Source: Gracilaria domingensis
Lineage: Eukaryota > Rhodophyta > Florideophyceae > Gracilariales > Gracilariaceae
NCBI GenBank assembly: GCA_022539475.1
Contig: VCMS01000152.1
Location: 83,933 to 147,932 of the forward strand
Direction of reading: 5' to 3'
Length of the DNA: 64,000 bases
The notes beneath the pieces are model-generated. The model saw only the letters and a list, made by a program, of their open reading frames with translations, ran no database searches and was not told where the DNA came from. Below are positions 36,278 to 59,375 of this stretch, one piece after another (position 1 is the first letter of the stretch; every line of letters starts with the position of its first letter). The translations under genes and the position numbers were made by a program.

Positions 36278-38207
36278 TGTCGATTTCTCTGACTACGTCC
36301 TCGTCGGTGCGTGTGCTGTTTCACGAAGAGGTCCGGCCCTGGCCGTTCTTGTGACAAAGAGGCTTACGGCTTCCGTGATGACAGTCTCTGAAGCAGAAAC
36401 AGCGTCTTCTGGTGTGTTTGCTACCGGAGGGGCAGCAGGAATAGCACTAACTGCCGGTTGCACATCGTTTTGTTTTGTCAGTGCAAACTTGAGTGGCCGT
36501 TCACAGGTATACTCGGCTTTTTCGTCCTTAAATCTGGGCCGTCAGTCTTTTGATGTGAAGAATCAGTTTCATCACTTTACTCTTGCTGGTCAACTGGGTG
36601 ACATGGGTTGGGAGCTATCTACGACCTCACATGGTAGCCAAAGCGCCCGGCAATGGTCCGAACTAAAGGACGGTTCGTTTTGCTATACTTTAGAGAATAG
36701 AGTTTCAGTTTTAAGAAACTCTTTTCCGACTCTAAGATATGAAGACCGATTGCACTGTGCAAAAGATCATGGTCTTAGCTTCAGGAAATCACCAGCTTTG
36801 GTTTTAGCTGATGGAGTTGTGGAATGTCGCTCCCGCCCGATCAATACCGTAGATTTGCTCGAAAATCATCCGGACTTCGGGCTCTTTTTCGTGAGTTTGA
36901 GGTTCGAAGTCGTTACAATTCCTGATACAAGACTTATTCAGTGGGATTGTGGGAAGCTTCAAACACTGGAACGGTTAAATCGCGATTTGAAAGCACGGAA
37001 GTCTCGAGCACTAATCTTCACGCAAATGAAAAGGATGTTGGACATTTTGGAATCGTTTCTCAATCTCCATTGTTGTCGTTATCTTAGGTTAGATGGCACA
37101 ACAAAGACGGATGATAGACAGAAAGTAGTAGAAAGGTTCAACACTGATACGAGAATTTTTTGCATGATTCTTACAACCCGTGCCGGTGGTGTTGGGCTTA
37201 ACTTAACGGGTGCCGATACTGTGATCTTCTACGACTCTGACTACAATCCTGCAATTGACAACCAAGCCCAAGATCGAGCCCATCGTATTGGTCAGACGAA
37301 ACCAGTTCATGTATACCGTCTGATATCCGAGCAAACTGTGGAAGAAAGCATTTTAAAGCGAGCCATGGAGAAGAGAGCCTTAGAGCAACAAGTTATTTCC
37401 CAGGCTGGATTTACTACAGACGCGATTCAGAGAGCTCGGGGATTGTTGAAGGCAGATAATTCTGGATCTAAGAACACAGTCGGAGATGGATTTACTCTTT
37501 CAGGGAGCGCAGAGAAGTCAGGTACCGTCAAAAATGGTTTTCGGAGCAGTTCAGAGCCGAACCATGAGAGGAAACGACACACTACGCCAGAGAACGGGAA
37601 GAACGGGTCCATTTCTGAGAACGGCGAGAGACCGTCACCTGCGTCTGATATTCAAAGCTCGTGTGGGCAGTTTACAGGGTTTGGAGCTGGCAAGGCTGTA
37701 GAAGCTGTTCCTCATCAAGGCAAGTTGGAAGGAGGTTCAGTTGAATGTGGCAGTGACAGGGACATGAACGAGTATCAAACCATAGCTTCAAAACTCCTCG
37801 CGAGAGAAGATGAACGAGAGACAATGGCCCTACAGGTTGCTGAGAAAGAGAAGAGAGATCTGGAGGCTGAATTCAAGGACACTCCCATTGCAAACCAAAG
37901 CGGTTTGTCAAAGAGAACTGGTGTGCGTCCGCACGACTCCGAAGATCTTTGTGAGATAGTGCGCACAAGCGACTACTCAAGAGAATGTCCAGGAACGGTG
38001 GTGTGGATGCGCGGCACACGGGGTGTAAGGCCGTGTGAGCTGCCGAGTCGGAAAAGACGGTCGTTGAAGGTGCGGAGTAGTCCACGGCACTCTGTGGTGA
38101 AACCGAGTACGGAGACACGCGCAGTCCAGAAAAGGTACCACGCGCCTAGCCAGAGAGCCGGTGCAACGGTAGTGATATCGCCGCAGAACAGCCTGTGCAG
38201 GTCTTAG
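36246..38207 (+). pseudogene. chimeric ORF: 5-phosphatase fragment + SWR1/SRCAP helicase C half + LTR
   Basis: A 653-codon open frame built from three unrelated parts. Residues 1-125 match the middle of an inositol polyphosphate 5-phosphatase ('SFCFVSANLSGR', 'SFDVKNQFHHF', 'LGDMGWEL'), without the first or last parts of that domain. From about 220 comes the C-terminal lobe of a Swi2/Snf2 remodeller of the SWR1/SRCAP type: 'RLIQWDCGKLQTLERLNRDL', 'ALIFTQMKRMLDILESFL', 'LRLDGTTKTDDRQ', 'LTTRAGGVGLNLTGADTVIF' and 'QAQDRAHRIGQTKPVHVYRL'. The last 86 codons lie in the gypsy LTR starting at 37950. Whether any fusion protein is made is unknown; fragments of both parent domains are too short to work as enzymes. 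Confidence 0.75.
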
Positions 38208-38504
38208 ACAAGCTGGGTTCCTACTACGACTTAGGATCCGTGCCACGGGAAACAAGACGAAGAACCTAGTAGGAAGCACCTTGGTTTACTGTCATGGTGG
38301 CCACAGCCGAGCTGGCGAAAATAAATACCTATTCCGCCGTCGACACACACGTGTACGACTTACCGATCACGGGGCACTAGTTGCCACCGGCATACGCGTG
38401 GACTACTACTACTACTACTAATATGTCTACTACAACAACGCCATCCGGCGAGCGGGTTTCCTTACAGTGTCAACATTGCAACCGTCACGGCTCAGTATCT
38501 TACA
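37950..38504 (-). repeat. gypsy 1, 3' LTR
   Basis: 555 bp, beginning TGTGAGATAG and ending TATCTTACA (TG...CA). Near-identical to 47914-48464. Its left edge joins the SWR1-like fragment, and it happens to remain open in that frame to 38207. Confidence 0.93.
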
Positions 38505-38506
38505 GA

Positions 38507-38517
38507 CCCCCCTTCTT
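38507..38517 (-). promoter_or_regulatory. gypsy 1 polypurine tract
   Basis: On the minus strand AAGAAGGGGGG, two bases from the 3' LTR, where plus-strand DNA synthesis is primed. It fixes the element's orientation. Confidence 0.85.
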
Positions 38518-38705
38518 AGCTTGTTGTCCGTCCTCGGACAACCTCGCGTCTGAAACGCTGAAGTCCGCCTTCGGAGCCCGCTTCACATACCGCGCATCCG
38601 CCCTCGCTCTCTGTTCCATTAACTCCACGCCATACCGTGCTCGGGTCTCTTCGCCTTCCAATCTTTTCGTTTCGCCCTCGACGCCCGCTTCGGTTCATCA
38701 CGACA

Positions 38706-40448
38706 ATGCCACAGGTAGGGGGGCATTGGGTCAGTCCGGATACGGAGTTCGACCATCGCCGCCACCCGGGTCGCCTTTCAATCTCGCAGCGCCGGGTGAT
38801 TGTGCCGTACCCTGTGGATCAATACGTTGACACTTCGGCCGAGTGGTTTGACGCGACGCGCTTCGCTGCTCTCCCAGTCCGTCCAGAAGTCGGATACCTC
38901 GTCGGTAACAAGCGTCTACGCGACGGCTCGTGGGAAGCCCGATGGGGACATATGCGCATTCGGCTCGACGAGGGACCTCGTTTCTATGCGGTTCTTTCCG
39001 AATCCGGAGTCCCTGCTGACATGCCATGGGTCCGGTGTCCTCAAGAACGCGACTACCAGAGGCGCTTGGCTGCTATGCTCATCCGTCTTCGGGAGGAGTA
39101 TGATACGAACGACAGCGCATGTCCGTTCCCGCCACCTGGCCATAACCTTCTTGCGCTCATCGCATGGGAGGTTCCACTTGACGGCTTTTATCTCATTGCG
39201 GAGCGTGAGCGATGGGGTGATGACATCAGCGACGAGGCCCGCATAAGAACCGGCCACGGTGTATTCTTTGGTTGGCACAACCAGGAATTTCATGACCTCC
39301 TTCGACCGAAGCGGCGGGGTCTTTATCTTTCCGTCGCGGCGGAGGAAGAGTGTTTCAAAGTGTCACGGTACCTTTGCGTGCCAAGTCCTCCGATTGCGGC
39401 TTACTACACCGGTCTCATGCTCACCCACGAGCGGATGGGCTACTTTGTCCGTGCAGTGTTGAAGACGGAATGGTGCGTGTTGGCTTTCTTCGCGTTCCTC
39501 TACGCTGCCCGAGACGGATTACCGATGCAATTGAAGTTTAGCGACTGGCGCCTTGCACGGGACCCCGACTTGGATGCTCCGACCGGACGGCTGATGAAGA
39601 TTCCTTGCGAGCTAGTTCGCTTCATCCGCCTGATCGGTGTCCAGAACATTGTCCGTGGTACTGACTTTGGTGCAGCGGAGGCGGACGCCCTACTGGATTA
39701 CGTTGTACGCATCGACTGGGACAAGACGCCGAACCCGGGGTATCTTTGGTATGATTTCGAAAACGACCGCTTCCCGGATATTCCCAGACATCCTGCAGAG
39801 CGAGACGACGGACGCGAGTACAAGAATAATCCTCCAATTCTTCCGGAGTCGGATTGCATGGATGCTCCACGGCAGTACGCCGAGCACTACTTTCCGCAGG
39901 CGCGCGGCTTCGTTCCGGAGTGCATCGCCGGCGGCCATCTTCAAAACACCGATAACGGGAGTGTGGAAGGAGAAGAGATTGATGCCGTTCCCGTAGTGGA
40001 AGTTCCCACGCCGGTCAGGGCCCAGGACACAGAGGTAGCCCAGGTTTGCTGGATGAACATCCAGCCGGAGCCGGGAACTGTCCTCCAACATCTTCACGAG
40101 TCATCCGTGACGGATGCGGCGCGGGACTTGTCCGACGACGGCACTCATCTCTCTGGGCGTGTGTACAAGGCGTATCAGAGCCTTAACGCACGCTGCGAGC
40201 AGCTCGAAGAACCGATTTCGGACAGCATAGTGCAGGCCCTGCAGCGTGCCAGAAAATGGGTTGAAACCGCCAAACTTCTTGACCGCTTCCGAGAGACGGT
40301 TGCCGGAGATTTCGTAACCATTATGGATGCCGTGAAGGAGGGTGCTGAGACGATAATGCGTGAAGAAGAGATTCAAGAAGTGACCTCAGCGCAGCCAGAA
40401 AACAAAACATCGAAGATTGCATCAACAATGCCGAACACGGAGCATTAG
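38706..40448 (+). CDS. antisense ORF of gypsy 1 (unknown protein)
   Basis: A 580-codon frame on the strand opposite to gag-pol, between pol and the 3' LTR. I recognise no domain. Visible features are a hydrophobic stretch ('WCVLAFFAFLYAARDGLPMQ'), a region 'MKIPCELVRFIRLIGVQNIV' with 'RIDWDKTPNPGYLWYDF' after it, an acidic low-complexity part, and a helical, coiled-coil-like end ('QALQRARKWVETAKLLDRF'). The middle resembles the opposite-sense ORF at 53795-56119 of the second gypsy element (IP..L...IR, then V..(V/I)DW, then Y..YD). ATG 38706-38708 follows CACGACA, as does the second ORF's ATG; the frame extends to 38637 only from GTG. A retroelement accessory or regulatory gene is inferred. 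Confidence 0.8.
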   Translation: MPQVGGHWVSPDTEFDHRRHPGRLSISQRRVIVPYPVDQYVDTSAEWFDATRFAALPVRPEVGYLVGNKRLRDGSWEARWGHMRIRLDEGPRFYAVLSESGVPADMPWVRCPQERDYQRRLAAMLIRLREEYDTNDSACPFPPPGHNLLALIAWEVPLDGFYLIAERERWGDDISDEARIRTGHGVFFGWHNQEFHDLLRPKRRGLYLSVAAEEECFKVSRYLCVPSPPIAAYYTGLMLTHERMGYFVRAVLKTEWCVLAFFAFLYAARDGLPMQLKFSDWRLARDPDLDAPTGRLMKIPCELVRFIRLIGVQNIVRGTDFGAAEADALLDYVVRIDWDKTPNPGYLWYDFENDRFPDIPRHPAERDDGREYKNNPPILPESDCMDAPRQYAEHYFPQARGFVPECIAGGHLQNTDNGSVEGEEIDAVPVVEVPTPVRAQDTEVAQVCWMNIQPEPGTVLQHLHESSVTDAARDLSDDGTHLSGRVYKAYQSLNARCEQLEEPISDSIVQALQRARKWVETAKLLDRFRETVAGDFVTIMDAVKEGAETIMREEEIQEVTSAQPENKTSKIASTMPNTEH

Positions 40449-41071
40449 ATCGTGTCAGTCGAGAGCGATAATCCACTCTGTGGACAGCAATGCTGCTCAA
40501 ATAAACTCTTTGAATTTTTTGAGAGCTCCTGTACCGCCATGCACGAGCGCACGCTTGGTAACCGATTCGGTAATCAGTAATGCGCGTAGGGCGTGCGCGC
40601 TGGCACTCAAAAAATCCTAAGTATTTTGAGGGCGCCAGGAGCGCAAATCGCGTGTTTTCAGCCTCTGAAACGGCCTCGTTTCCGAGATATCAGGCAAAAG
40701 AGTAATCGCCGTTTTTGACCGTTTGCGGAGGGGTAATTTCCGCGACAGATATTTTGATTATCCTTGCAAGTAGCCTCTGGCGCTTCCAGGCGCTCCCTGC
40801 CGTATGCGGGCCTAGAGAGCATGCGCGCCTGGTGCTGTCGCTCCCCGTTGCATGGTGCGTCCTTGCTGGGCGCCGCCGCGTGCACCGCGTCCTTGCTGGG
40901 TTCTACAGCGCGTGCTGCGCATTGCGCAAAGTGCTCAAACGCATTCCGTGTGCCGTCTCCTTTCATCTGTGCTTCGTGTGCTGAGGCAATGAGCCGACAC
41001 GGAGAAGAGCGCTGCTACGAAGAAGCAATGTCAATTAGACATGACGCTGGAACCTGTTTTGAGAGGGATCA
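40449..41071. other. spacer between convergent antisense ORF and pol
   Basis: No gene. An imperfect hairpin at 40600-40638 (CTGGCACTCAAAA against TTTTGAGGGCGCCAG) sits between the two convergent 3' ends and could aid 3'-end formation. A 14-bp repeat (GCGTCCTTGCTGGG) occurs twice near 40857 and 40888. Confidence 0.55.
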
Positions 41072-44000
41072 TTACCGCTTCGGAGCTTCCTGCTTCCGAG
41101 TTGTTTGGCGCTTCTTGCCCCCCTTCTTAGATTTCGATGCGTCCTCGACAGCCATTCGACGGAAGTATCGTTCCACAAAGTTGTGTGGGATGTTCCGTCT
41201 TGGTTCCCACGTAGACTTCTTGAAACCGTACCACTTTACTCGTACGAGCTCCTCACCGTCTTCGGCTGTACCGTGGCCGGTGACCTTCTCCACGACCCAT
41301 TCTTTCTCCGTATCTGGGTGGGGTGTGGCCGCAGTAGGTTCGGATGTAGCCGGTGTCGGATCAGCGGGAACCGGAGTTTCAGCGGTACCGTCGTCAGTCG
41401 GTGCATGTTCGTCGCGTGACGGCGTGGGGTCAGATTCCGAGTGCGGTGCTTGTGAACGGGGGTCCATTTCCGTTCCGGTTGTACCATCAAGGCTTTTATC
41501 GGCAATGCTATCCCTTTCTTCGGAAATAGGAGAGGGTGCCGATACGGGATTAGATTCGGTGACGGGGGTGGGGGTTGCGCTCTCCTCGGAGACAGGAGTG
41601 GGCGCCGCCGTCACTCGGTCAATACTAACGATATCGTGCAACCCGTCGATGTCCAGTGTGACAGTGGTTTCAGTAGCACGAACGACCTTATACGGACCTT
41701 CCGAAGCCGGTAATAGTTTTTTGACGATATCTTCGTACTCGGTAGAATTCTTCTTCCGAGGCGGAGCGTCTAAGTAAACCATATCCCCTTCCTTAAAGGT
41801 CGGAGTGTACCGTATCCGGGAATCAAAGGAGGCTTTGTAGCGCTCCTGCGATTTGCCTAGTTTGGTGTAGGCAAGCTTGATTAGTTTCGAGATGCGGGCG
41901 CGTGTTACGCGACGGGATTCTGCCGTTGTCGGGTGCAGAGATGCCGTTTGCGGGAGAGCTGACGTAGGCTCGTCGAGCACGATCCCGGGGGGGTGCCGCG
42001 TAAGCGAGAGGTCGAAGGGAGTGAATCCGGTTGAGCGGTGAACCTGCAGGTTGTACCCGTACACCAACGGCTGGACCAACTTATCCCAGTCCTTCTGGTG
42101 CTCTGCTACGTAATGCCGCAAGCGGTTCACCAAAACCTTATTGAACCTTTCGGCCTGCCCGTTCGTCTGCGGATGATATGCCGTCGTGAGAGCGTGCGTA
42201 ATACCGAGATCAGCAGAGAGCGACTCGAAGTACTTGGCGACGAACTGCGGGCCATTGTCGGTGAGGAGGTAAGTGGGAATCCCGTAAGGGTAGACCCAAT
42301 TCTCGAGGAACGCGATAGCGATATCAGCGGCCTTCGTGTCCGACAGCGGTATGGCTCGAGTGAGCTTAGTAAAGCGGTCCGTTATCACCAATATGTATCT
42401 CTTTCCGCGTCCGGTTTTCGGCAATGGTCCGAGTATGTCCATGGCCACAAACTCGAAGGGACCCGTTGCCGGGAACAACTTCAAGTATTTTTGGTTCCTG
42501 AAATGAGTTCCGCGAACGGCTCGACACGGTTCACACCGAGAGACGGTCTCAAATACATGCTGCGACATGAGTGGCCAGTAGAAATCCCGACGTAGGGTGT
42601 AGTACATCTTGATTGCACCGGGGTGTCCAGCCAAGCGTTGGAAATGAGCGAGTTCAAGAACTCTTTCCCGTAGGGACTCCGGTACGACTCTCTGTACTGC
42701 TCCGTCGATCGGTGATATTCTGCACAGTATCCCGGAACGGTTGTAGTCAAACTGGGACTTAGGATCTCCGACGGATTCGGCCTTAGCTTTGCAGAAAGGG
42801 TCCCTCGCCTGGGCGGCAATGAACTCTTCAACCGTTATCGGAGTGACGTCAGGTTGCTCCGGGACGGTTGTGAATACATGCAAGGGCTCACCGTCATCGG
42901 TGATTGTTGGCCAGTTGATCAGCGCGTCCTTGATGACTTCTCCGTTAACGAGGACATCTGCCACAACATAGTCCGTGTCGGTCTCCATCTCTTCTATGAA
43001 CAGGCATGGGATTTCATCCTCCAAAGGCGTCTCATCATTTCCGTCGGTCGGCATCCGTGACACTGCGTCGGCAGGAAGATGTTTTATGCCGGGTCGGTAG
43101 TGCACCTCAAAGTCAAACTCTGCGAGGCGTAGACGCCACCTCGCGAGTCTTCCCGTAGCGTCGGTTATATTGAGGAGCCAGCGCAAAGCGTTGTGATCCG
43201 TTCGAACTACAAAACGTTGTCCTTCCAGGTATGGCCTTAGAAGTAGCATGCTCCATACGATGGCCAGGCACTCTCGCTCAGAGGTGCTGTAGTTCCTTTC
43301 CGGCGCGGTTAACGAACGGCTCCAGTATCCGATTGGGCGGTAGTCTTTCTCGTCTTCTTGCTGCTGTAGCAGAGTACATCCGACTTGACGGTCACAGGCG
43401 TCCGTCTCCAAGATGTAGGGCTTTCCGGGTTTCGGTAAAGATAGAATTGGAGGGGAGGTGAGCCTCTTCTTCAGTTCTTCGAACGCCTCCATATCTTCTT
43501 CCGAGAACGGTTCGAGGTCGACAGGTTGGTCCTTCTCAAGCTTCCGGTTCAGCGGGTGGGCGATCCTTGCAAAGTTCGGCACGAAGCGTCTGTAGACATT
43601 GGAGAGACCTAGGAACGCCCGGAGCTCGGTCTGTGTCCGTGGTGGTTTAGCTTTTGTCACAGCGTCACAAGTCTTCGACGCCACTTGAAGCTTCCCGGGT
43701 CGGATCACATGTCCCAGGTAATCAACTGCTGACTGGAAGAAGAAGCACTTCTTCAATTTCAGTGTTATTCCGGCTTCTCGGAGTAGGTCAAGTACCTTAG
43801 CTAGGTGTCGGTAATGATCCGTGACGGAGCTCGAGTAGATTATGACATCGTCGAGATACACGATAGCAAATTGCCAACGAACCTTATTCAGGATGACATC
43901 TATAGCTCTTTGAAACGTCGCAGGGGCGTTCTTCAAACCAAATGGCATCCGAATAAAGCGGTAGAGACCCACGTGGGAGGTGAAAGTAGTTTTGTCCCTA

Positions 44001-44303
44001 TCGGGCTTGTCTATTTCCACTTGCCAATACCCCGAGTTGGCGTCAAGGGTAGAGAACACTCTTGCGTCTCCCAGTGAATCAATGCATTCATCCATCCGTG
44101 GTATCGGGTAAGAGTCACGAACTGTGACGGCGTTGAGCTTTCTGTAATCGATGCAGAAGCGCCAGGAGCCATCCTTCTTCAAGGCGATGACGACGGGGCT
44201 AGCCCACTCTGCCGAAGACGGTTCAATTACTCCTTCCCTCAACATCTTTGTGATTTGCTCCTTCTCCCATTCTCGGGCCTTCTGACGGGATCGGTAAGGG
44301 GGC
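41072..44303 (-). CDS. pol: gypsy 1 pol: RT-RNase H-integrase-chromodomain (partial, enters gap)
   Basis: About 1,077 codons with no stop from the assembly gap to 41072. Reverse transcriptase: 'GVIEPSSAEWASPVV', 'FSTLDANSGYWQVEI' with the motif A Asp, 'MPFGLKNAPATFQRAI' and the 'VYLDDVIIYS' active site. RNase H: 'LETDACDRQVGCTLLQQ' and 'LRWLLNITDATG'. Integrase: a zinc-binding part ('HFQRLAGHPGAIKMYYTL', 'CEPCRAVRG'), then 'MDILGPLPKTG', 'LTDNGPQFV' and 'YHPQTNGQAERFNKVL' (D, D, E). Chromodomain near the end: 'EWVVEKVTGHG', 'VRVKWYGFKKSTWEPRRNIP'. All catalytic residues are present, so pol appears competent where sequenced. The 5' part of pol (protease) lies in the gap. Confidence 0.95.
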
Positions 44304-45185
44304 NNNNNNNNNNNNNNNNNNNNNNNNNNNNNNNNNNNNNNNNNNNNNNNNNNNNNNNNNNNNNNNNNNNNNNNNNNNNNNNNNNNNNNNNNNNNNNNNN
44401 NNNNNNNNNNNNNNNNNNNNNNNNNNNNNNNNNNNNNNNNNNNNNNNNNNNNNNNNNNNNNNNNNNNNNNNNNNNNNNNNNNNNNNNNNNNNNNNNNNNN
44501 NNNNNNNNNNNNNNNNNNNNNNNNNNNNNNNNNNNNNNNNNNNNNNNNNNNNNNNNNNNNNNNNNNNNNNNNNNNNNNNNNNNNNNNNNNNNNNNNNNNN
44601 NNNNNNNNNNNNNNNNNNNNNNNNNNNNNNNNNNNNNNNNNNNNNNNNNNNNNNNNNNNNNNNNNNNNNNNNNNNNNNNNNNNNNNNNNNNNNNNNNNNN
44701 NNNNNNNNNNNNNNNNNNNNNNNNNNNNNNNNNNNNNNNNNNNNNNNNNNNNNNNNNNNNNNNNNNNNNNNNNNNNNNNNNNNNNNNNNNNNNNNNNNNN
44801 NNNNNNNNNNNNNNNNNNNNNNNNNNNNNNNNNNNNNNNNNNNNNNNNNNNNNNNNNNNNNNNNNNNNNNNNNNNNNNNNNNNNNNNNNNNNNNNNNNNN
44901 NNNNNNNNNNNNNNNNNNNNNNNNNNNNNNNNNNNNNNNNNNNNNNNNNNNNNNNNNNNNNNNNNNNNNNNNNNNNNNNNNNNNNNNNNNNNNNNNNNNN
45001 NNNNNNNNNNNNNNNNNNNNNNNNNNNNNNNNNNNNNNNNNNNNNNNNNNNNNNNNNNNNNNNNNNNNNNNNNNNNNNNNNNNNNNNNNNNNNNNNNNNN
45101 NNNNNNNNNNNNNNNNNNNNNNNNNNNNNNNNNNNNNNNNNNNNNNNNNNNNNNNNNNNNNNNNNNNNNNNNNNNNNNNNNNNNN
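44304..45185. other. assembly gap (882 Ns)
   Basis: Unknown bases within pol of gypsy 1; frames crossing it are not informative. Its size may be an estimate. Confidence 1.
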
Positions 45186-45895
45186 GGAGCCTTGATCGGT
45201 AATAACTGAGACTCCATCCGGGCGGTTAAAGCGGGGTGGTGTACAGGTTTGGGGATGCTCTTGTGTCAGACCTTGTTGATCAATCCGTGTTAGGCGGGGC
45301 CTTGTGATAGAGGGCTGGTCAGGATTTGTAGTTCTGACTCTAAACAAGTAAACCGGTTTCGGAAGTGTCAATCTCACAGTTCAACACTTTCATGATGGAG
45401 TCTTCTTCGCACGGCTTTCCGTTCAACGGCTGGACCTCTTGAGCTGTCATCCTTGCAGGGCGCGCGCTATACGCGTCCTGCTGAGTCGTTTTCCTCCTCT
45501 TCAGGATGATGTGGGTTCTTCCTCCTTGCAGGATAAGGCCGAACGGCGGGGACTTCTATTGGTGGTTGAGAATTCCGGGATCGAGCGGTATTGTCGGCGG
45601 AAACTTCCCGGCTACCGACATCCGGGTCGACGTCCCTGGTCCAGTAATGGGCATCCGAGGGCGGGAAATAACTTCATCAAGCCGAATGGGTGTATTTTGC
45701 TCACGTTGCTGTAGCAACTTGTTCCGGACTTCGGCAGGCATCATCGCAGCAGGGCGGGTAGTTGATCAAGCATAAACGACATGCTGGGTTCGGTCGCGGG
45801 TCAAAGGATTGTCGAGGGCGTTTGGTATGCCGAGTATGGTGTTGAAGGCTCGTGCTCTGACCCATCTGGGGAGGTGAAGCGGTACTGTGCTGGTA
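45186..45895 (-). other. gypsy 1 gag-pol junction region, degraded
   Basis: About 700 bp between the gap and the recognisable gag. Frames are short. It presumably held the end of gag and the start of pol, but nothing is recognisable enough to name. Confidence 0.4.
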
Positions 45896-47816
45896 TCAGA
45901 CGGGGAAGGAGACGCTCGGCGAGGGCAACACTGCTAGGGCTTCCAGCTGGTTTTTACTCGGACCTCGTCTAGTATCCGTTTCGGTAAGGAGAGCTCGCGT
46001 ACGCGACTGCGTCGCGTCACGGGCTTTCTCGACTCGTGGAATGACTTCCTTTCGCCACGGTGAGTATCTCCTAGACGTTCTGCAATAGTCAACTGCCTGA
46101 ATCCGATCTTCGGGTGTGTTCAGATGATTGCGGACGCGGCCGCGGATCGCTGGTAGTAAACCTTCCACGAATAAAGCCTTCAACGCGAATCAGTGAACTG
46201 TTACCGCAGCGGAGATTCTTCTTCCCAAGCGGTCCGCAGAATTCACTTTCCGTAATTCCGGAACTCTGCCGATAAGTTGTTATATGGTGATACGCTTCCC
46301 GCGATGACTTCGTCAGTAGCGTACGTCTCCAGGAGATGGTTCACGCACCTCCGGATAGGATCGTAGAGCTCATCGTCCTCATCCGAATCCACGGCTCCTG
46401 ACTCGCCCGAGATACGGTTCTTGACGAGCTCTTAAGCCGAGCTGGATGTGAAAACTGAAGAGCCAGAACTTGCAAGCTTCCTTCTGAATTGCGTTCTGTT
46501 GCATGCGGGTTCTTCAACGTTCACTGGAGAAACTTGAGGACCGTGAATCGGATGTTCCCAACTGATTCTCGGGCAATCTGCAATGCCATCCGTTTAGCGG
46601 ACTTCGCGACTGTCCGGGCCACTTTAGCATTGTACTTTCCGGAACGGTTCATCAAGCGGTAGGTCTTGAAGCTCAGGACCTTGGCGAACTCCCGATTGTT
46701 CGGCTTGATTCGCCGGATACGGGAGACATCAGATTCGTCTTCCGTATCACTGGATTGACTCGAATCAGAGTCAGAATGCTCCGAGTCGGTATCGGAGTCG
46801 GAGTTTCCATAACGAGTATGACGCGACCCTCGACGCTTCCTATTACGGTTCTTCCTTTTGTTACGCTTCTTTTTGTCCGGGTTCGGGATGACGTTCGGCG
46901 TGCCCCGCGCAGTCTCCCTACTGCGGAGGAGGCCATCCGAATCCGGTACCAGAACTGGATCGACGTTCGACGTGCCCCGCACAAGTTCTTGATTGTGGAG
47001 GAGGCCATCCGAGTTCGGGTTCATCCGAGCCGGTAAGGGGTTCGACGTGCCTCGAATGGTATCTGCTTCATTGAGGAGCCCTTCCAACCTCGGGTTCGAG
47101 CGACGTTCGACGTGCCCACCGCGATCTGCCCATCACCGGGGAGGCCGCCCGCATTGTATACTTCATCCCCTTGAGGGTTCAGCGCGAGTTGCCCTGTCGG
47201 GGTGACCAAGTTGCTGCACCACATCCCTTGCCGGTGGAGGTTGGGGGTATGATCCAGCAGGCAGTAGGCGATGCCTGCGGAGTTGGTTCGCGACTTCACT
47301 TTCCACAGTTTCAACCACCACATCGGTTACAACCGAAGCATTCCGAAGACGGGTGGACACAGTCTCCACGATCACAGGGAGCTGCGTTTCTATACCGGAC
47401 CGGACCCGTTGTTCAAGGACACTGTCTACCTGAACAGGCACACGATTAGAGAGTTCCTCCGTTAACCACCTCTCTAACTGGGGTAGGAGGGAGGCAAAAT
47501 CCGAGACGGTCGCTGCGTCTAACATGGCGGAGATTGCCGATTCGGGGCCACGGGTCTGCACACGAGGTGCTGGTCCAGGGTCTCCTCTTCCAACTTCCGT
47601 GTTCTGGGGTGCTTCTCCGGTGCGGCGGAGCAAACGCTCCGGGTTATCCACTTGTGGTACGAGTCCTTGCGGCTCACTGCGGCTACTGTTCGACCGCGGG
47701 GGCGGCAGAGAGAGCGCAGGTGGGTTCGATTCGGCCCTGCCGGTAGTCACACGAGCCGAAACAGACTTTGGACGAGCAAGCTCGTCGAGCCGAGAGGACT
47801 TCGACTTTGAAGACAT
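45896..47816 (-). pseudogene. gag: gypsy 1 gag, broken
   Basis: Gag sequence is spread over at least three frames: 47816-47163 (Ser/Pro/Arg-rich start, ATG 47814-47816), 47087-46521 (a Lys/Arg block, 'NSDSDTDSEHSDSDSSQSSD', 'VLSFKTYRLMNRSGKYN') and 46183-45896 ('ALFVEGLLPAIRGRVRNHL'). The segments align in order with gag of the second gypsy element ('DSDSSQSSG', 'LLSYRYYRLEDSSLNR', 'LFIKGLNPAIRTLV'), which shows they are parts of one gene. Stops and shifts between them mean this copy cannot make an intact Gag, in contrast with its intact pol. Confidence 0.75.
46895..47180 (-). repeat. tandem repeat in gypsy 1 gag
   Basis: Three or four degenerate repeats of roughly 80-90 bp, each with a TTCGACGTGCC-like core on the plus strand. 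On the minus strand they code variants of 'GLL-(E/N)-x-(A/T)-x-RGT-(S/P)-NV' ('LVRGTSNV', 'TARGTPNV', 'TIRGTSN'). Confidence 0.7.
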
Positions 47817-47893
47817 GAGGGGTTGTGAAGCTTTTTAGGCTACTCCTTACTTCCGATACGGCAAAAACGAATCTATTCTTCCACGAGAAACCG

Positions 47894-47911
47894 TTCTAGG
47901 TCGGGAGACCA
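47894..47911 (-). promoter_or_regulatory. putative gypsy 1 primer-binding site
   Basis: Two bases inside the 5' LTR, the minus strand reads TGGTCTCCCGACCTAG, with the TGG expected opposite a tRNA CCA end. The matching tRNA was not identified. Confidence 0.5.
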
Positions 47912-47913
47912 GT

Positions 47914-48464
47914 TGTGAGATAGTGCGCGCGAGCGACTACTCAAGAGAATGTCCGGGAACGGTGGTGTGGATGCGCGGCACACCGGGGTGTAAGGCCGTG
48001 TGAGCTGCCGAGTCGGGAAAAGACGGTCGTTGAAGGTGCGGAGTAGTCCACGGCACTCTGTGGTGAAACCGGAGTACGGAGACACGCGCAGTCCAGAAAG
48101 GTACCACGCGCCTAGCCAGAGAGCCGGTGCAACGGTAGTGATATCGCCGCAGAACAGCCTGTGCAGGTCTTAGACAAGCTGGGTTCCTACTACGACTTAG
48201 GATCCGTGCCACGGGAAACAAGACGAAGAACCTAGTAGGAAGTACCTTGGTTTACTGTCATGGTGGCTACAGCCGAGCTGGCGAAAATAAATACCTCGTC
48301 CGGCGTCGCCACACACGTGTACGACTTACCGATCACGGGGCACTAGCTGCCACCGGCATACACGTGGACTACTACTACTACTATATCTACTACAACAATG
48401 TCATCCGACGAGCGGGTTTCCTTACAGTGCCACCACTGCAACCGTCACGGCACAGTATCTTACA
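47914..48464 (-). repeat. gypsy 1, 5' LTR
   Basis: 551 bp with TG...CA ends, paired with 37950-38504. It contains a trinucleotide ACT run near 48368. Its right edge cuts into the copia element. Confidence 0.93.
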
Positions 48465-48505
48465 AGTAGCTGAACGGCGATCGTACGATGAAAATCAAGT
48501 TTAAG

Positions 48506-49088
48506 CTAAGCAGCAAGTGTGGTGGCTATATCAAAGAGATCAGAAAGTGCGATAACTTCCCCGAATATAGCCGAACGTGTAATGCGGCGTGCTTTGTACG
48601 ACTTAAAGCTAATGGGGATGACCTTTCCAGTATGATCACCGAAAAAACGTATATGTCCTAGTTGCGATGAGAAGTTAGCATTATTAGCAAATGATGAATC
48701 GGAGTATCCAATGATGCGAAGAGAGTTTGGGTCCAGGGAGGGGAATTGAATAACCACATCATGAGCCTTGGCATATCGTATGGCACGGTTGAGTCGTAAG
48801 ATGATAGAAGAACTATTCTTGCGGAACATTTCTTCAGTGACTTGCGCCATCTGAGAGATTTCGAATGAACAGTCGGGGCGAGAGTTGTCAGGCCAAGCCA
48901 GCTTCATTCGCATTGACCGAAACAGTTGAAAGCTGGCAGTGGGTTGCAATTCTTCCATCTTCCGTAGGTAGCTCGGTTGGTCCATTCGGATGGTTCCGTA
49001 GGAGTTGCGTGAAAGGTTGAATCCATTGAATGGGCTTGGCAGATGTTGATCGTCTGTCATTTGAAATCACTCTTTGCTTCTGCTGCAA
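48506..49088 (-). pseudogene. copia RT end and RNase H, truncated
   Basis: Contains 'SFEISQMAQVTEEMFRKNSS', 'RAIRYAKAHDVVIQFP' and the copia RNase H core 'RIIGYSDSSFANNANFSSQL' (first catalytic Asp in GYSD) followed by 'GEVIALSDLFDIATTLA' before a TAG. The last part of RNase H is missing. Confidence 0.8.
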
Positions 49089-49979
49089 GCCCGATTTATA
49101 TTCGTCGTTCCCAGGTCTGATCCAGTCGTCGACATCATGTCGTGCTATGATAGCAACCAGAGAGATCTTTTAGCAAGCGTTCGCCAAGCATAACGTAAAG
49201 GGCTGGGCTGAGCGTAGTGGGGTCATGTGAAGGTCCTCGCGGTGATGTTGGTTGATGGTTCTGTACCATAGGTCGCCGGATTCACATAGTCCGTATAATG
49301 GCTTCAGAACTTGTAGACACTGCGAAGGATTTAGCTCGAATTCTGGTACGGGCTTGGTGATGAACACATTGCGCGAAAGTAGCTCGGCTGATTGCAGATA
49401 TGGTTGACGTATGTCAGAGGTCCACATGTCAAAACCGTGCAATGCAGCGAGGGCTAAAAGAAGACGAATCGATTGCGGTTGAAGCGTGGCGGAGTTGTGA
49501 ACCATCATGTTCTTCAACTTATCCCGATGTCCTCCGATAACGTAGCGTGCACGGTACTTGACCTTGCCGTCTTCAGTGGAATTAAGGGCGAAAACGAATC
49601 TGCCAGGCCGTATGCTGGCATTGCTTGGAACTTCTTCACGAAGAATGGTCTTGAAGGTTCCACGTTCCAGCAGGCCGCGAATCTCTGAACGCTTTGCACC
49701 GTCTATTTCTTTGGAATGTACTCGAGGGTCTCCCTTATCCAAGATCTCTGTGAGGTAGAAATCCTCTTCTTGTGGCGATCGAAAATGAGAGAGAGAGTCG
49801 TTCAAATTGCTGAAGAAAGAATTTGCGAGCGTCTCGGGTTCGTAGTAGGGTTTGACTTGTGCTAATCCAAAGGGCTTAGCGGCTTCAATTCGGTCTTCCT
49901 GAACATAGAGGAGCTTCCTGGATTCATCGATGGCTTCGACAGTGAAAGGGCCTAACCATTCTTCAATGAGATTTTCCAC
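49089..49979 (-). pseudogene. copia reverse transcriptase, frameshifted
   Basis: The frame has '[20 protein letters not shown]', '[20 protein letters not shown]', '[19 protein letters not shown]' and '[18 protein letters not shown]', the copia RT fingers and palm, with the motif A Asp in '[10 protein letters not shown]'. After a stop at 49170 another frame reads 'DVDDWIRPGNDEYKSGLQQ', the (x)VDD active-site region. At least one frameshift makes it inactive. Confidence 0.8.
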
Positions 49980-49991
49980 GACCTTCTCCCT

Positions 49992-50606
49992 TTACACCAG
50001 AACTCTGTTGCCAACTGGGTAGACTTGGTCGGCCGCATGTGCGGTTTTGTGACGCAAAGCTCGTTCAACCCGAAGTTTGGCCATGCACTTCTGCATTTCT
50101 GCACGCGCTGTCATCGCTAGTTTGGCACGGCTTGCTAAGGTACCAAGTGCGTCTGGGGTTTCGGAGCGCGTGTGCACTGGCGGGTACTCGCCAAAGACCA
50201 AAGCCGAAGAGACTAGACCTTCTGGTCCAAGTGTGTCATTCATTGACTTGACGGCGGCGGACAAAGCGAGCTCCGGCTCTGTTCGCGGGTCTTGCGCCAT
50301 TATCTTGCGGTAGGTTTGCCGCACTGGCTGATGGTATGGCTCACCTATTCCCAAGCTAAAGTGAGCTTCGACGCCAGTCCTGTCGACCTGAATGTTCGAC
50401 AGGGAGGCAATGTCAATGAAGAGCTGACCGAATGCGCTTTCTGGATCGACAAGCAGACGGTTGGGCATACCTGTGTAGACTGTGATCCAGCACAGTAGTA
50501 TCTTCTTCCATATAGTCTTCGTAGAGACATCTGACAAGAGTACTGCGGCAGAGAAGTGCGTTGCTTCGTCAACGACATGTAATATTGGTTTCCCGTGAGT
50601 ATACAT
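49992..50606 (-). pseudogene. copia integrase core, broken
   Basis: An rve-type integrase core: 'PILHVVDEATHFSAAVLLSD' (first D), 'MPNRLLVDPESAFGQLF' (second D), 'GIGEPYHQPVRQTYRKIM' near the E position, followed by a Lys/Arg-rich end. Separated by a frame break from the zinc-binding part upstream. Confidence 0.75.
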
Positions 50607-50648
50607 GATGTCGATCAGAACGCGCTCATTGAACCGTACATTCTCTGC

Positions 50649-51332
50649 TCAAAACGAAACCTTCAGGCGGGATGGTGCACTCTGGATCCTCTGACAAGGG
50701 TCACAACGCTTGTTGAGGTCTCGCAAAATTGTCAAGGTCACGGGCGTGGCTTCTTCTCGGTGAGCTTTCTTGAGAAGTTGGAACAGCTTGGTGGCGGACG
50801 CGTGAAAGAATTGGCGGTATAGCTTGTACAGTTGTGCCCTAGTGAAGAATGTCCGGAATGGTAAGTGGATTTTCACGAATACGTACCTACGTCTTGCACG
50901 ATGGAGTGGTATAGACCAATTGTCGACGTAGTTCTCGGTGCCGTCTTCAAGGGTGATGCGTTCTCGTCGAATCAGGCGGTTTGCTACTGTGTCCGCAATG
51001 AGTGACTCACGGTCGAGTACATCCATTCCCAGTAAGGCTGGTATATTGGCCTGTACTACGTCCATAGTGACGAAGATTGGGGGAACGTTTGGCGGTGTGG
51101 CAATCTGTAGGGTGATCTGGCCAATCGAATTGAACAGTGCATCAGCGAACCTGAATCGTGTGTGGGATGGAAGTTTCTCCAGCTTCGGGACAGGGAGTCT
51201 GTTGTCGGCAAAGATTCGTCTTAACTCTTTGATACCAACGACAGAACGAGGGGCTCCAATATCTACGCAGAAGCCATTCATACGTGACCGATTGCGTGAT
51301 TGTGAGAGATTGGATATGTGGATATGGGTCAC
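50649..51332 (-). pseudogene. copia protease and integrase zinc-binding region
   Basis: The protease active site appears as 'GFCVDIGAPRSVVGIKEL' (D-I-G-A). Later 'LYKLYRQFFHASATKLFQLL' and 'RDLNKRCDPCQRIQSAPSRL' are the His/Cys zinc-binding region that begins the integrase. Breaks flank the frame on both sides. Confidence 0.75.
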
Positions 51333-51439
51333 ATTGATCTCGGTGATGTAACTACTTAATTTTCGCCTCGGTAAGGTACTTCTATGCGAAGCACCCCAGC
51401 GTGCGGGGCGACGGGGTAGAGGCTCAGTACTACGCCGCC

Positions 51440-52825
51440 CTAGTGAAAAGGCGGCGCATCCCCTGAGTTGTAATTGACGTTATTGCTAGTCATTGAGGCA
51501 GAAACATGGTTGGTGAAACATTCTCTGTCGAGGGCTTCCATTTCGGAAGGGCCTGCTTGCGCTCCATCTGCAGCTAGCTCGTCAAACAGTCGAATCTCTT
51601 CTGCATTTGAATCGTCATTGTCGCTTGAGACCACTACGTCATCAGCTTGTTCTGAGTTCTCTCTCTCCATTGCCAAGACGAGATCTGACACTATGTATAC
51701 CGCGGACTCTCCGCTCTTGATACGCTGGCGTATATAGTGACGAATCGAGCCGAGTTTTCATTTATGTCCGGGATGCCATGGAGCATGGCATTTGTGACAT
51801 TCGTTACGGCGGCAACTCTCCTCGAAAGTTCGGGGGAAGGATTGCCAGCGGCTAGTACGACTTAGTGCATTAACTTCGTTGCGGGGGGGATGCTTGCGCA
51901 CAAACTTCGGGTTTCTGCCATACTGTTGGTACAAAGTGTCTTTATCAATGACGTGGGTGTCGGTCTTGCGAGAGACTTCCTTAATCTCCTCCTCGAGGTT
52001 CTCTCTAAGCGCAGTGATGAATCCATTGAATGTGTACTTGGAGGTGACAATGTTGCTAATTGGGAGCTTCGACCATTCAACACCGAGTACGGCCTTGCGA
52101 AAGAAACCAATCCTGTGGTCTTGGGATCGGAAGGCGGGGGGGCATTGTGGGGAGAGTTCCTCGATCATTGTGACTATCTTTTTTAGTCCCTTAGAGTGTG
52201 TAGTGATCTCATTCTCCATCATAACCTTCTCGATGCGAAGAGTGTTAAGAATGCCGTAGATCTGAAGCTGACGAGCATTAATATTATACTCGGCCGTCAT
52301 CATGGTGGCCATTTGTTCAAAAGACATGTCGTCACGAGCATTGTGAAAGAAGAAAGTACGAGCAGGGCCATCTAGGACCTTAGCGAAGTAATCAGCCTTC
52401 TGTGCCGTAGACAGGCGATGCTGACGAGCACAGATATTATATTCACGAAGTGTAAGTTCAATAGACTGAGAGAGCTCTCCAGTGAAGCGATTTTTTTTAA
52501 AGTGCTGTGAAACATAGTTCGCCTTACGCGTGTCCTCTCCAGTGCTGCTATTGCGTGCAGTCTCGCTAGACTGGATGTTAACCGGTACGTCTCCTTCGTT
52601 TTCAGAGTGTGATCGACCGCGTTCCACAACCGGAACTTCCGGCTCTTGGTCTTGGAGAGGTACAGAAGGATGACGGTGCGGATCAATGTCCACCTGAGAT
52701 CCCAGTGTAGGAAGGATGTCCGTTAGATTACCCCGAGGTTTATGGTGGTTGTGGGTGGGATTTTTAGCCTGATCAAGCGCAGAAGGTGAACGACTACGGC
52801 GATAGAGATCTACAACTGCCTTCAT
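51440..52825 (-). pseudogene. copia gag, stop in the zinc knuckle
   Basis: Gag frame from ATG 52823-52825 ('MKAVVDLYRRSRSPSALDQ') with a capsid-like helical part ('NRFTGELSQSIELTLREY', 'KADYFAKVLDGPARTFFFHN') and a CCHC zinc knuckle 'ECHKCHAPWHPGHK' in which the last Cys is replaced by TGA at 51758-51760. Beyond the stop the same frame stays open to 51440 with an acidic stretch ('NSEQADDVVVSSDNDDSN'). The stop thus looks like a single-base loss of the knuckle Cys. Confidence 0.8.
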
Positions 52826-53218
52826 GGTGTCGAACGACGCATCTAAGAAGTGCATGAACCAAATATGGGTAACCAGAGAGCGATTGGTGGTCTCACGCTG
52901 TCGTGCAAAACCTAGAGATGGGAGTGACAGGCAAAGGCGGTTCAAACCTTCCCTCTTAGAGGTAAGCACAGCGAATAGAGCGCTCCCACGGAGTGCCAAG
53001 GCTAAGCCGGTCGTAAGCCCGAGGCCAATCCTTCCCAAGCAATGGAGGGAGCGAAGCAGCGAAAAAGACGCGTCCAGCGGTAGAGAACACACGATACAAG
53101 TCAGCAGTAGCGTCACGTGCGTAGCAAGCGGTACCCACGAGTGTGGCGATGACACGCGAGAGCGGTAATAGCCCACGTGAGTGTGTCGAGCCACGAGCGG
53201 TATGCACCGGTACACCAA

Positions 53219-53715
53219 GTAGTGCTACCTGTATAACAGGGACAGAAATAAAGAAAACACACCCAAAGTAAACACGCGAAAGCGGTAGTGGTGTTAATGG
53301 TGCCGCGAGGCGGATAAAAAACCCGACACACGGTGGTGACTCTCCGCAAGGAGACTATCACGCACCGAGGGGGGTAAGTTAGAGCCGAACACTCGGTTGT
53401 TCCGTTTACTTCCCCAGCACTGGGTGCAGCTCAACCTACTAAGTACTGAAGTGGGTTGGCCCACTGTCAGTGTGGTACAGCAGATATGCTACAAATATCT
53501 ACTTCAAATGCCCCAATGAATGGGTGCAAACCTTTCACACGTGTGTGACTCACCAGCTAGGCCGTGCACCTCAAAACACTAATTCTAATATTAAGTATAC
53601 CCAAGAATGGGCTGACCTCACCAGTTATTCATACTGTGTGCCACCGCCTCCCGGCATCGCCGTGCATATTATGAATCGCATCAGCGACGGAGTATCGCAA
53701 TCGCGTTGCACTACA
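53219..53715. other. probable LTR sequences (copia 5' side and gypsy 2 3' LTR)
   Basis: About 500 bp without genes between copia gag and the gypsy 2 purine tract. By position it should contain the 3' LTR of gypsy 2, ending CACTACA at 53715, and perhaps copia LTR remains. Left LTR edges cannot be set because the partner LTR is outside the window. Confidence 0.5.
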
Positions 53716-53719
53716 TTTA

Positions 53720-53728
53720 CCCCTCCTT
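53720..53728 (-). promoter_or_regulatory. gypsy 2 polypurine tract (putative)
   Basis: Minus strand AAGGAGGGG, four bases inside the inferred LTR end at 53715 and followed by CTAA-like context as in gypsy 1 (CTAAGAAGGGGGG). Confidence 0.6.
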
Positions 53729-53794
53729 AGTGTGCGAGACGACCCCGCGAGCGGTTTCGCTTTCCTCCTCTGGAGTGCATTTAAGCACGACACC

Positions 53795-56119
53795 ATGACG
53801 GTCTCCAATCCGGCCTCCCCGGTCTCTTCTAACGGCGACTCCGGTCAACCCCTCTCCACGCGTACTGCGGTAGTGTGTCCTCCGATACCTCGGCGCGCTC
53901 TCCCTTCTCTCTCGCTTCCAGCGCTTTCGTCTCTTCCTCGCGCGCTTCCTGCGATGCCGAACCCGAATCAGGGTAGCAACCAACCGCTTGGCGGGTCTCA
54001 GAACCAATACGTTGGTAGTTTCGCTGGGCCGTCACACCCTTCATCCTCTGGAGTGCCTCTCTCACAGCCGTCTTCCGCTGGCATTCCATTTCCGCAACCG
54101 GTCAATCCGGGATTTCACACGGCGCCTCTTCCCCAGACGGGTGGTCAACTTCCGCCCCCGGCGTTTGTACCGCAGTGGAACTGGATCGCTCTTGCTGTCC
54201 CGGTCCAACCGGTAGTCAAGCCGCATGCGGGCGTGTGGGCGTCGTATGACGAACTCGACAACGTCGACCCTCACAGCAATCCCACACCGTTCTTACGGGC
54301 TCCGTGGTTTCATCCGCAAGGCGTGACCAATCGTTCCCTCGTCGAGGCGTATGCCGATGGCAGTGGTCACCTCCCAGGAGGCGTGAACGTCTGGATGACG
54401 GTGAAGTTCGACTGGCATTACCGGATTACCGTGACTACCAACGCGCTCGTCCACCATCGTAGTCAGTCGCACAACTCCGCTCGGGCGGCCATGGTCCGCG
54501 TAGCGCACATGCGAATGTTTCGCACGTACTCAGAGCGCCCGGTTCTGGTGAACTTCCGTTTCGACGTGGACTTCTTCCGAACACTCGGCGAAATCCAATA
54601 TGGAGAGAATCTTGCCCGGCTCGCCGGTGTGGTGGAGCGTTACCAGAACGTCCCCGTTCACCAGGATCTCCTGTGCTGGACTCTCCCAGGCGGAAATACT
54701 GGAGTGCTTCTGTCAATAAGACTTAATTCACGTTTCAAGAAGAATCCTTTAGGAACTCTGTTAATTGAAGAAAAAAATAACATATCGAATTTCTATTGAG
54801 AGATGGCAAGCCAAAAAATTTGACATGTAATTGCCATTGTAAAGATATTGGAGTACTAAGAAAAATTTGCACATATAGGAATCGGATTGAAAAGCTAATG
54901 AACGATAGTTCCGCCTTGGCCGTCCGCTCCTGCGTGCAGAATTTCGACATCTCCCACGCGTGCCGCGGTCCAACTACCTTCAAACAATGATCCGTTCCGA
55001 ACGACGTGCTCGCTTCCGATGGGGTTACCTATCCCGTATCAAAACACGGAGTCAAACCGGATTCTTCCGGGCCACATGCGTGGGAGATATGTTCCTCTCC
55101 CCTTTGTGTGGGCGTCGGTGGAGGTCTGCCGTGGCTGTTACGTGGAACTCTCCTCCTGTCTCACGTATGTGGGTAGTAGGCTCGTGACAAACCCGTTTAC
55201 GGGATGGTGGAGCGTCGTCCTCACGGGGTGGGCGGCGCGAACAGCGGTGTATCTCCTCAACGAGTTGTATGGCCAGTATCGACTGTGGTTTATTCCCCCG
55301 CGCTTGCTGCAACTCATCCGAGCTTTGGATCTCACTATCCCGCTTGGCGGTAATGGAAACTTCTCGGAAGTCATGTGCCTCTTGCGAGTGATTGATGGAG
55401 TCGACTGGGGCCAGGTTCCTTTTTCGCAGAGCGCACGGGACGAAGGCGATTCCGCTATTGATCGGTCCCCGGGTCGCAGGTCCCCACTGTCGGGTGATTA
55501 CATCTATTACGACACCTGGACACGGGTGGCGATTACCAACGCCGAGGTGGAGCTCCTTCGGAACGCCGAGCGAGTCATCCCTCCGGGGCACCCTACGGGC
55601 TTCATCATAACTGATGAGTTCTTTCACCCTGTTCGGGACCAGAACATCATGGTTGACGACGCCCCCGATGACGGTGACGAGTACGGCGACGACGACTTCG
55701 CGGCAGCTCCGGTGGAGGGGACAGTACCTGCTTCAGCAGTGCCAGGTCCCCAAGCGGGTGCTAACGCGGCCTTCCCGAGCCTGTTGAATCTTCCTTCTGC
55801 GCCTCAAGCGGTTCCTGGGCTCGCAGTGGCTCCGGTGCCTACGCCTGTGGTCACTCCTGCGCCGATGGCGGTTCCTGTACCGACACCAGTGGTTGTCTCG
55901 ACTCCAGAGGAGAGTGCTGCCCATTCTGAGATGGCGGCGTCGGCTGCGCCGAACGAAGCCGCGATCGCGGGTATCTCTGACGAAGCACAGGCTGCCGTGA
56001 TTGCTCAGTTCCTCAGCGAGGCTGGTGTTTTCGACGCGCCGTCGGGTGACGTGTGGCAAATGCGCGATGCGCTCATTGCGCAGCTCGCGAACGCGAACAA
56101 TGAGCCTGGTTCCGAGTAA
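53795..56119 (+). pseudogene. antisense ORF of gypsy 2, interrupted by AT-rich insert
   Basis: A frame opposite to gag-pol, from ATG 53795 to about 54695, then an AT-rich insert, then open again from about 54908 to TAA 56119. The N-terminal 120 residues are Pro/Ser/Gly-rich; the middle ('WWSVVLTGWAARTAVYLLNE', 'LWFIPPRLLQLIRALDL', 'VIDGVDWGQVPF', 'DYIYYDTWTR') parallels the gypsy 1 antisense ORF; the end is Pro/Val/Ala-rich. Without the insert it would be roughly 700 codons. No known domain recognised. Its 3' end is convergent with the chromodomain end, 474 bp away, as in gypsy 1. Confidence 0.75.
54696..54908. other. AT-rich insert of possible organellar origin
   Basis: About 30% G+C by hand count over 54711-54900, against well over 50% on each side. 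It is flanked by short inverted octamers (AGGCGGAA at 54688-54695 and TTCCGCCT at 54909-54916) and breaks the antisense ORF. Composition suggests plastid or mitochondrial DNA; no gene is identifiable. Confidence 0.6.
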
Positions 56120-58526: not shown

Positions 58527-59375
58527 CTATTGCAGGTAGTGATCCCGTATTGACAGTGACGTATCCAGCTTTGCCGATGGTTCAACCGCAACTGGCGGTG
58601 GTGTCCGTGAGAGCACGAGCTCAAAGGGCGATAAACCAGTTACTCTGTGAACTTGCGTATTATACGCATACGTCACGGTATCCGTGTAGAGATCCCAAGT
58701 TTTCAGGTGTTCAACAGTATAAACCCGCAACGCGGAGAGCATTGTCCGGTTAAACCGTTCGATTTGCCCATTGCATTGTGGATGATACGTCGTCGTGAAG
58801 AGATTCTTCACGTCGAGTATCCGACAGACATCCTGGAAAAAACGCGCAGTAAACTGCACACCATTATCCGAAGGGAGATTGACCGGGGGACTGTAGACCA
58901 CAACCCAATGGCGAAGGAATGCCTCCGCAACACTGCGTGCTGTAATCGACTTCAACGGAACTGTCCGGACTAGCTTACTGAATCTATCGGTAATAACGAG
59001 TAAGAACCGATTTCTTCGGGAAGTACGCAAGAACTCACCGAGTATATCGATGGCAATAAACTCCAACGGCGCCCTTGCGGGGAATAACGTTAGTATCTTC
59101 GCATGGCGACGCTGCTTCACTCGCTCGCGAGCACAATGTGTACACGCCTTCACGGTGGTGTAGCAGTCCAAAGCTAACGCGGGCCAGTAGAAATCCCGAC
59201 GCAGTGTCGTGTATAGCCGCTTAGCGCCCGGATGCGCAGCCATCCGCGAGTGATGCGAGAGGTGCAGTACCCTTGTTTGCAAGGAGTGAGGAACCACAAT
59301 CTGTGGTTTAGACCGAACTACTCTGACGAGGTAGCCTTGTGGGTTTACCCCAAAAGGGAATCTTCGCACCACCAT
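58527..59375 (-). pseudogene. gypsy 2 integrase, stop-terminated
   Basis: Has the zinc-binding part ('HHSRMAAHPGAKRLYTTL', 'CTHCARERVKQRR') and the catalytic core with D, D, E: 'IDILGEFLRTSR', 'LPSDNGVQFTARF', 'YHPQCNGQIERFNRTML'. It ends at TAG 58527; the same frame continues at 58508, so this is a nonsense mutation. The 5' end joins the RNase H frame by a shift at a C4-A4 run near 59350. Confidence 0.85.

Follow-up and report, generated by a model that had tools for sequence, protein, structure and literature searches.

We found that two retrotransposons in a 64,000-nucleotide window of contig VCMS01000152.1 from the red alga Gracilaria domingensis carry related genes on the strand opposite to pol. 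The elements are Ty3/gypsy long terminal repeat (LTR) retrotransposons, here gypsy 1 and gypsy 2, and their antisense open reading frames (ORFs) are ORF1 and ORF2, respectively. By comparison of predicted proteins, we show that ORF1 and ORF2 are members of a single, undescribed protein family whose genes lie antisense between pol and the 3' LTR of gypsy elements with a chromodomain. The features on which this rests are as follows.

38706..40448, + strand: ORF1, intact antisense gene of gypsy 1, a single open frame of 580 codons (580 amino acids)
53795..56119, + strand: ORF2, the gypsy 2 antisense gene, broken in the window copy, placed from its frames and comparison with relatives
54682..54919, no strand assigned: insertion in ORF2, about 238 bp, AT-rich, with in-frame stops; locus L032 also carries it, whereas L033, L038 and further copies lack it
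41072..44212, - strand: gypsy 1 pol, examined part (reverse transcriptase, RNase H, integrase and chromodomain), from Pfam matches
41156..41299, - strand: gypsy 1 chromodomain at the integrase C-terminus (PF00385, expect value (E) 8.9e-5)
37950..38504, - strand: gypsy 1 3' LTR, with TG..CA ends; the match to other copies breaks at 37949/37950
58527..59375, - strand: gypsy 2 integrase (PF17921, PF00665)
60298..62124, - strand: gypsy 2 frame with reverse transcriptase (PF00078, E 1.2e-25)
52899..53474, - strand: probable gypsy 2 3' LTR region, edges approximate, LTR nature inferred; the relative L071 matches at 86% in the equivalent part

One family of antisense proteins

ORF1 sits between the minus-strand pol/chromodomain match and the 3' LTR of gypsy 1, starting 201 bp inward of that LTR. 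Its stop-free run spans 628 codons, whereas none of 2000 mononucleotide shuffles exceeded 303. The shuffles and the substitution ratios given below rule out a chance open frame. ORF2 is placed relative to its own reverse transcriptase and integrase as ORF1 is, so the matching place and orientation described in the first-pass annotation hold for both elements. The same annotation had two long antisense frames of 580-700 codons: that of ORF1 is open, and the window's ORF2 is no single frame of about 700 codons, being broken into two frames, one of 334 codons that begins with the ATG at 53795 and one of 366 codons beginning at 55019.

The break is the insertion of about 238 bp, which brings several stops. 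L033 and other copies align without gaps on either side of it, and L038 shows the empty site. L032, on another contig, shares the insertion, so ORF2 is disrupted in at least two copies. Hence, ORF2 is ruled out as an intact gene in the window. Other copies do keep the frame open, as had been anticipated: 21 of 28 ORF2 relatives (L033-L060) have a stop-free frame of 721 codons, 681 of them from the ATG.

ORF1 and the window's own ORF2 pieces gave no significant BLASTP match (E 0.05 and 6.2). In a small database of locus ORFs, ORF1 was matched by 23 of 32 ORF2-type loci (L031-L060, L068 and L069) with E from 9e-4 to 8e-6. Profiles of 11 ORF1-type (A1) and 7 ORF2-type (A2) proteins aligned by hhalign over 207 columns with 97.2% probability (E 2.9e-11). 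The ORF2-type profile also picked up three proteins in the database (E 1.8e-174, 1.5e-125 and 3.8e-120), among them 'hypothetical protein BWQ96_10156 [Gracilariopsis chorda]', and with these three relatives included the ORF1/ORF2-type probability was 97.7% (E 1.6e-12). By BLASTP, ORF1 and the G. chorda protein share 28% identity over 196 residues (E 6e-10). Hence, the two ORFs can be aligned, as the first-pass annotation had supposed. Searches of the protein database with ORF1 alone and with alignment A1 found no relative (7993 candidates scored each), and none was found in viral contigs.

The pattern IP..L...IR / ..DW / Y..YD, first noticed in the two window copies, is conserved in both families and lies within their shared region. 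The word CACGACA before both ATGs is a coincidence: it occurs in 0 of 15 other loci listed (60 bases before the ATG), and ORF2 relatives have CACGTTG (L033) and CACGTCG (L038) at the site. We therefore rejected it as a shared signal, the word not being conserved upstream of the relatives' ATGs. Overall, the earlier interpretation is supported, with CACGACA and an intact window ORF2 dropping out as evidence.

Elements of both types carry, by domain matching, a chromodomain at the integrase C-terminus, and we use 'chromovirus' by chromodomain alone. The PF00385 match of gypsy 1 scores 22.8 bits, slightly below the Pfam cut-off of 25.1. The frame 57264-58505 of the window's gypsy 2 gave no Pfam chromodomain match; the chromodomain of its relative L071 scores 29.1 bits, over that cut-off. 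Brown algal chromodomain lineages are reportedly not chromoviruses, according to the available text of PMC12477816.

Selection, exchange and absence of the gene

Four genome searches, whose merged loci give a lower bound, placed the antisense gene family at no fewer than 251 loci on 183 contigs of the 77.9-Mb genome. Where a pol match lies within 6 kb (102 loci), the gene is downstream of pol and antisense at 100; at the remaining two (contigs C442 and C292) it is antisense but upstream of pol. Conversely, among the matches listed, 44 pol places are of gypsy 1 type and 32 of them have a downstream antisense match; of the 138 that are of gypsy 2 type, 68 do. The LTR side of the gene is shown for gypsy 1.

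We estimated the ratio of nonsynonymous to synonymous substitution (dN/dS) by Nei-Gojobori counts, with the C-terminal 175 codons of pol as yardstick. Non-recent, unsaturated copy pairs mostly gave 0.09-0.45. All 36 pairs of group F3 (ORF2-type) fell below 1: the 21 pairs among seven close sequences ran from 0.09 to 0.50 (20 of them 0.09-0.30), the 14 pairs against L068 or L069 gave 0.22-0.27 at dS >2.2, and the pair L068-L069 gave 0.62. Three F2b pairs gave 0.22-0.45. The 15 pairs of F1 comprise ORF1 against L007 (0.10 at dS 2.6), four further pairs with L007 (0.17-0.18 at dS near 2.6), four saturated pairs with ORF1, and six recent-copy pairs with few differences (0.39-1.56), L017 having an altered tail. 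Synonymous sites were saturated in all six F2a pairs, for which the proportion of nonsynonymous differences was 0.26-0.34.

Selection on the protein, which the first-pass annotation had proposed, is borne out by dN/dS well below 1 between non-recent copies. Low ratios in these pairs, together with 0.39-1.56 in recent copies, argue that the antisense protein is constrained over the long term and drifts after insertion, as expected of a transposon gene. In a tree of 17 proteins, the database relative P0002 groups with F4 (support 100/100), apart from F3. Barring horizontal transfer, the F3/F4 split is hence older than the separation between this genome and the source of P0002. Judged from these comparisons, the family is shown to be old and under purifying selection.

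The gene and its backbone seem to differ in history in several elements. Those on C204 and C340 have Pol 94% identical to that of gypsy 1, with antisense proteins 52-53% identical to ORF1; for one C18 element the corresponding values are 93% and 41%. In L010, L012 and L013 the LTR is 95.3% identical to that of gypsy 1, and a 368-bp stretch of the spacer that follows the ORF is 90-91% identical; their synonymous divergence is 0.50 (dS) in the pol C-terminus against a proportion of synonymous differences of 0.77 (saturation) in the ORF. Since adjacent segments differ in synonymous age, recombination rather than fast evolution in place is indicated. The antisense gene behaves as a cassette: similar backbones carry different versions of it, and it can be absent.

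Absence of the gene was read in one element, L071 (on C176), which continues gypsy 2 pol with an open chromodomain frame. From about 2225 to about 4413 it holds unrelated DNA, ending 228 bp before the ATG position of the gene-bearing L038, with no frame above 118 codons, and neither family profile matched there. Rfam gave no match at gathering scores in L071 or L038. Non-coding segments of this type stand at 40 genome places, 21 of them at 99% or more; for 17 of the 40, no integrase match is listed upstream.

Among the 138 gypsy 2 type integrase matches listed, 62 have an ORF2-type gene (68 after adding later searches), 23 have the non-coding segment instead, uniformly 2240-2250 bp away; no match has the two together, and for the remainder neither is listed. 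The 21 segments at 99% or more show that the gene-less subfamily amplified recently, and such amplification fits a protein that acts in trans or one that is not essential.

The two elements and their surroundings

The remaining features of gypsy 1 are its full extent and its second LTR.

37950..48464, - strand: gypsy 1, complete with both LTRs; LTR pair 94.8% identical
47913..48464, - strand: gypsy 1 5' LTR, which pairs with 37950..38504

The gag-pol region of gypsy 1 is partly masked in the sequence data. In an LTR comparison, its 3' LTR was 100% like the LTRs of L001 and L002, and its 5' LTR was 99.1% like the LTR of the L010 type. Hence, gypsy 1 is a mosaic or recombinant of two element types, its LTRs being of different types. 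No target-site duplication was visible in the examined flanks. Near-identical copies of the gypsy 1 3' end occur at separate sites, with different flanks in L001, L002, L004, L005 and the window; L006 and L009 have the same flank.

By eye, the frame 36246-38207 resembles the C-terminal part of an SNF2-type helicase. It ends inside the gypsy 1 LTR, so the element seems to have been inserted at the 3' end of a gene. A SacI-homology (Syja_N) match barely below the Pfam cut-off lies in the frame 35000-36277. The minus-strand frame 49170-49979 resembles, by eye, a copia-type reverse transcriptase.

Gypsy 2 has the orientation of gypsy 1 and extends toward the window's far end, where the contig (147932 nt) ends as well; its second LTR was not found within the window, and the partner would lie past the contig end. 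The ORF2 insertion is possibly a small non-autonomous DNA transposon. Viewed by eye, its short ends look similar and inverted (..CCAGGCGGAA / TTCCGCCTTGGC..). The minus-strand frame 51758-53218 gave a weak DUF1759 match (E 0.002, below cut-off) and overlaps the probable gypsy 2 3' LTR region.

Known antisense genes and the function of the product

Antisense genes between pol and the 3' LTR are known from maize Grande (gene23), rice RIRE2, Silene Retand (ORF4) and PvRetro13, according to the available text of PMC7264820 and PMC11963269, to which statements citing these two papers are limited. The red algal genes resemble them in antisense orientation, position, many copies and conservation, and position and orientation are those of the general aORF-3R kind. 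The function of the plant genes behind pol is described as unknown and an open puzzle (PMC7264820). Gene23 of Grande is a nuclear protein read from its own promoter. Transposase_28 (PF04195) characterizes the Retand/Tat antisense proteins and is present in 97% of Retand clusters (PMC11963269), whereas the 11 ORF1-type and 7 ORF2-type proteins have no PF04195 match. Retand is also a non-chromovirus lineage, unlike the chromodomain-bearing red algal elements, and cassette exchange and a gene-less subfamily, seen in the red alga, are not described for the plant elements in the available text of PMC7264820 and PMC11963269.

Outside plants, the fungal gypsy element Boty has an antisense ORF (named in PMC7264820), and HBZ of human T-lymphotropic virus 1, a deltaretrovirus, is an antisense retroelement gene with a nuclear product (PMC11963269); HBZ comes from an unrelated retroelement group and is alike in arrangement alone. 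The first-pass annotation knew of no such gene in algal chromoviruses, and we found no red algal or chromovirus antisense gene in the open-access papers searched, including the available text of PMC12477816, PMC11963269, PMC4007536 and PMC6317226; an earlier description in subscription literature is possible. The same arrangement is thus already known in plants, and the red algal protein family, without kinship detectable by sequence, appears to be new.

In the family proteins, about 400 conserved residues (~1-410 in ORF1) are followed by a variable tail, which is acidic in ORF1. Gene orientation, constraint, cassette exchange and gene-less copies make a trans-acting nuclear accessory factor the likeliest product, and we give a trans-acting nuclear accessory or anti-silencing factor a probability of roughly 0.45. 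Consistent with this function, 9 of 13 proteins are acidic beyond residue 420 (pI 4.1-4.9), and K-[KR]-x-R occurs within the conserved part of 7 of 9 ORF1-type proteins. Antisense protein from other copies could then serve the gene-less copies, and cassette exchange would alter which antisense protein a backbone carries.

Several observations weigh against this assignment. Four of 13 proteins lack an acidic tail, K-[KR]-x-R is found in 0 of 4 ORF2-type proteins, and 149 of the 251 loci have no pol match within 6 kb among the matches listed. As the first-pass annotation had it, there is no recognisable domain: we found no convincing Pfam domain in the 11 ORF1-type and 7 ORF2-type proteins (cut E 0.1) and no convincing match to PDB sequences. 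Weak Pfam matches to DHC_N1 (E 0.21) and Prominin (E 0.068), weak PDB matches of the tail (apolipoproteins and others, E 0.21-0.87) and one chain at E 2.3 were taken as compositional. AlphaFold confidence (predicted local distance difference test) was too low for a fold, at 33.9 for ORF1 residues 1-410 and 34.9 for P0002 with a 4-row alignment. Finally, the gene-less subfamily fits a dispensable gene equally well.

The trans-acting factor is perhaps anti-silencing, by analogy with VANC, the anti-silencing proteins of Arabidopsis VANDAL transposons (PMC5735166, available text). The likeness would be that of a diversified, element-encoded protein family acting in trans on element DNA. VANDAL elements are DNA transposons, whereas the red algal family is in LTR retrotransposons. 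A more tentative possibility is that red algal gypsy elements evolved, independently of the Tat elements of land plants, a large trans-acting (anti-silencing or regulatory) antisense family that is shuffled as a cassette and exploited by a gene-less subfamily in a VANC-like arms race.

A direct part in replication or integration, as a nucleic-acid-binding, packaging or target-site factor whose antisense placement serves only timing or dose, is a minority reading that we take seriously. It would account for the long-term constraint, for the basic first 420 residues of the four ORF2-type proteins (pI 9.6-10.1) and for the tail of L063 and L064, which ends in an RG-rich stretch as in nucleic-acid binders. 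However, the gene-less subfamily has amplified, and antisense placement uncouples the gene from gag-pol expression. Slightly less probable again is an accessory gene of modest benefit, such as conditional counter-defence, freely gained and lost, so that gene-less copies need no complementation. The gene-less subfamily and the disrupted ORF2 of the window and L032 agree with this; the full frame kept in 21 of 28 ORF2-type relatives and the low dN/dS do not.

That the antisense RNA is the functional product and the open frame incidental is very improbable: retrotransposon antisense RNAs can act as RNA (PMC7264820) and gene-less copies hold non-coding DNA at the same position, but codon-level constraint (F3 dN/dS 0.09-0.50) largely refutes it, and the protein is conserved between sources. 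An env-like or cell-to-cell movement protein, suggested by position between pol and the 3' LTR and by hydrophobic stretches in ORF1-type proteins, whose mean hydropathy reaches 1.81, is just as improbable, since an env-like third ORF is sense and transmembrane whereas this gene is antisense, ORF2-type stretches reach merely 1.0-1.4, and no common transmembrane-like stretch was found across 13 proteins.

That red algae have, in the same position as plants, a protein family with no kinship to the plant ones detectable by sequence suggests repeated origins of a useful arrangement. Exchange or absence of the gene between elements points to a helper protein that could be shared among copies. With copies that differ in cassette and copies that have none, one 78-Mb genome would allow a direct test of action in cis versus in trans, and of the target sequences.

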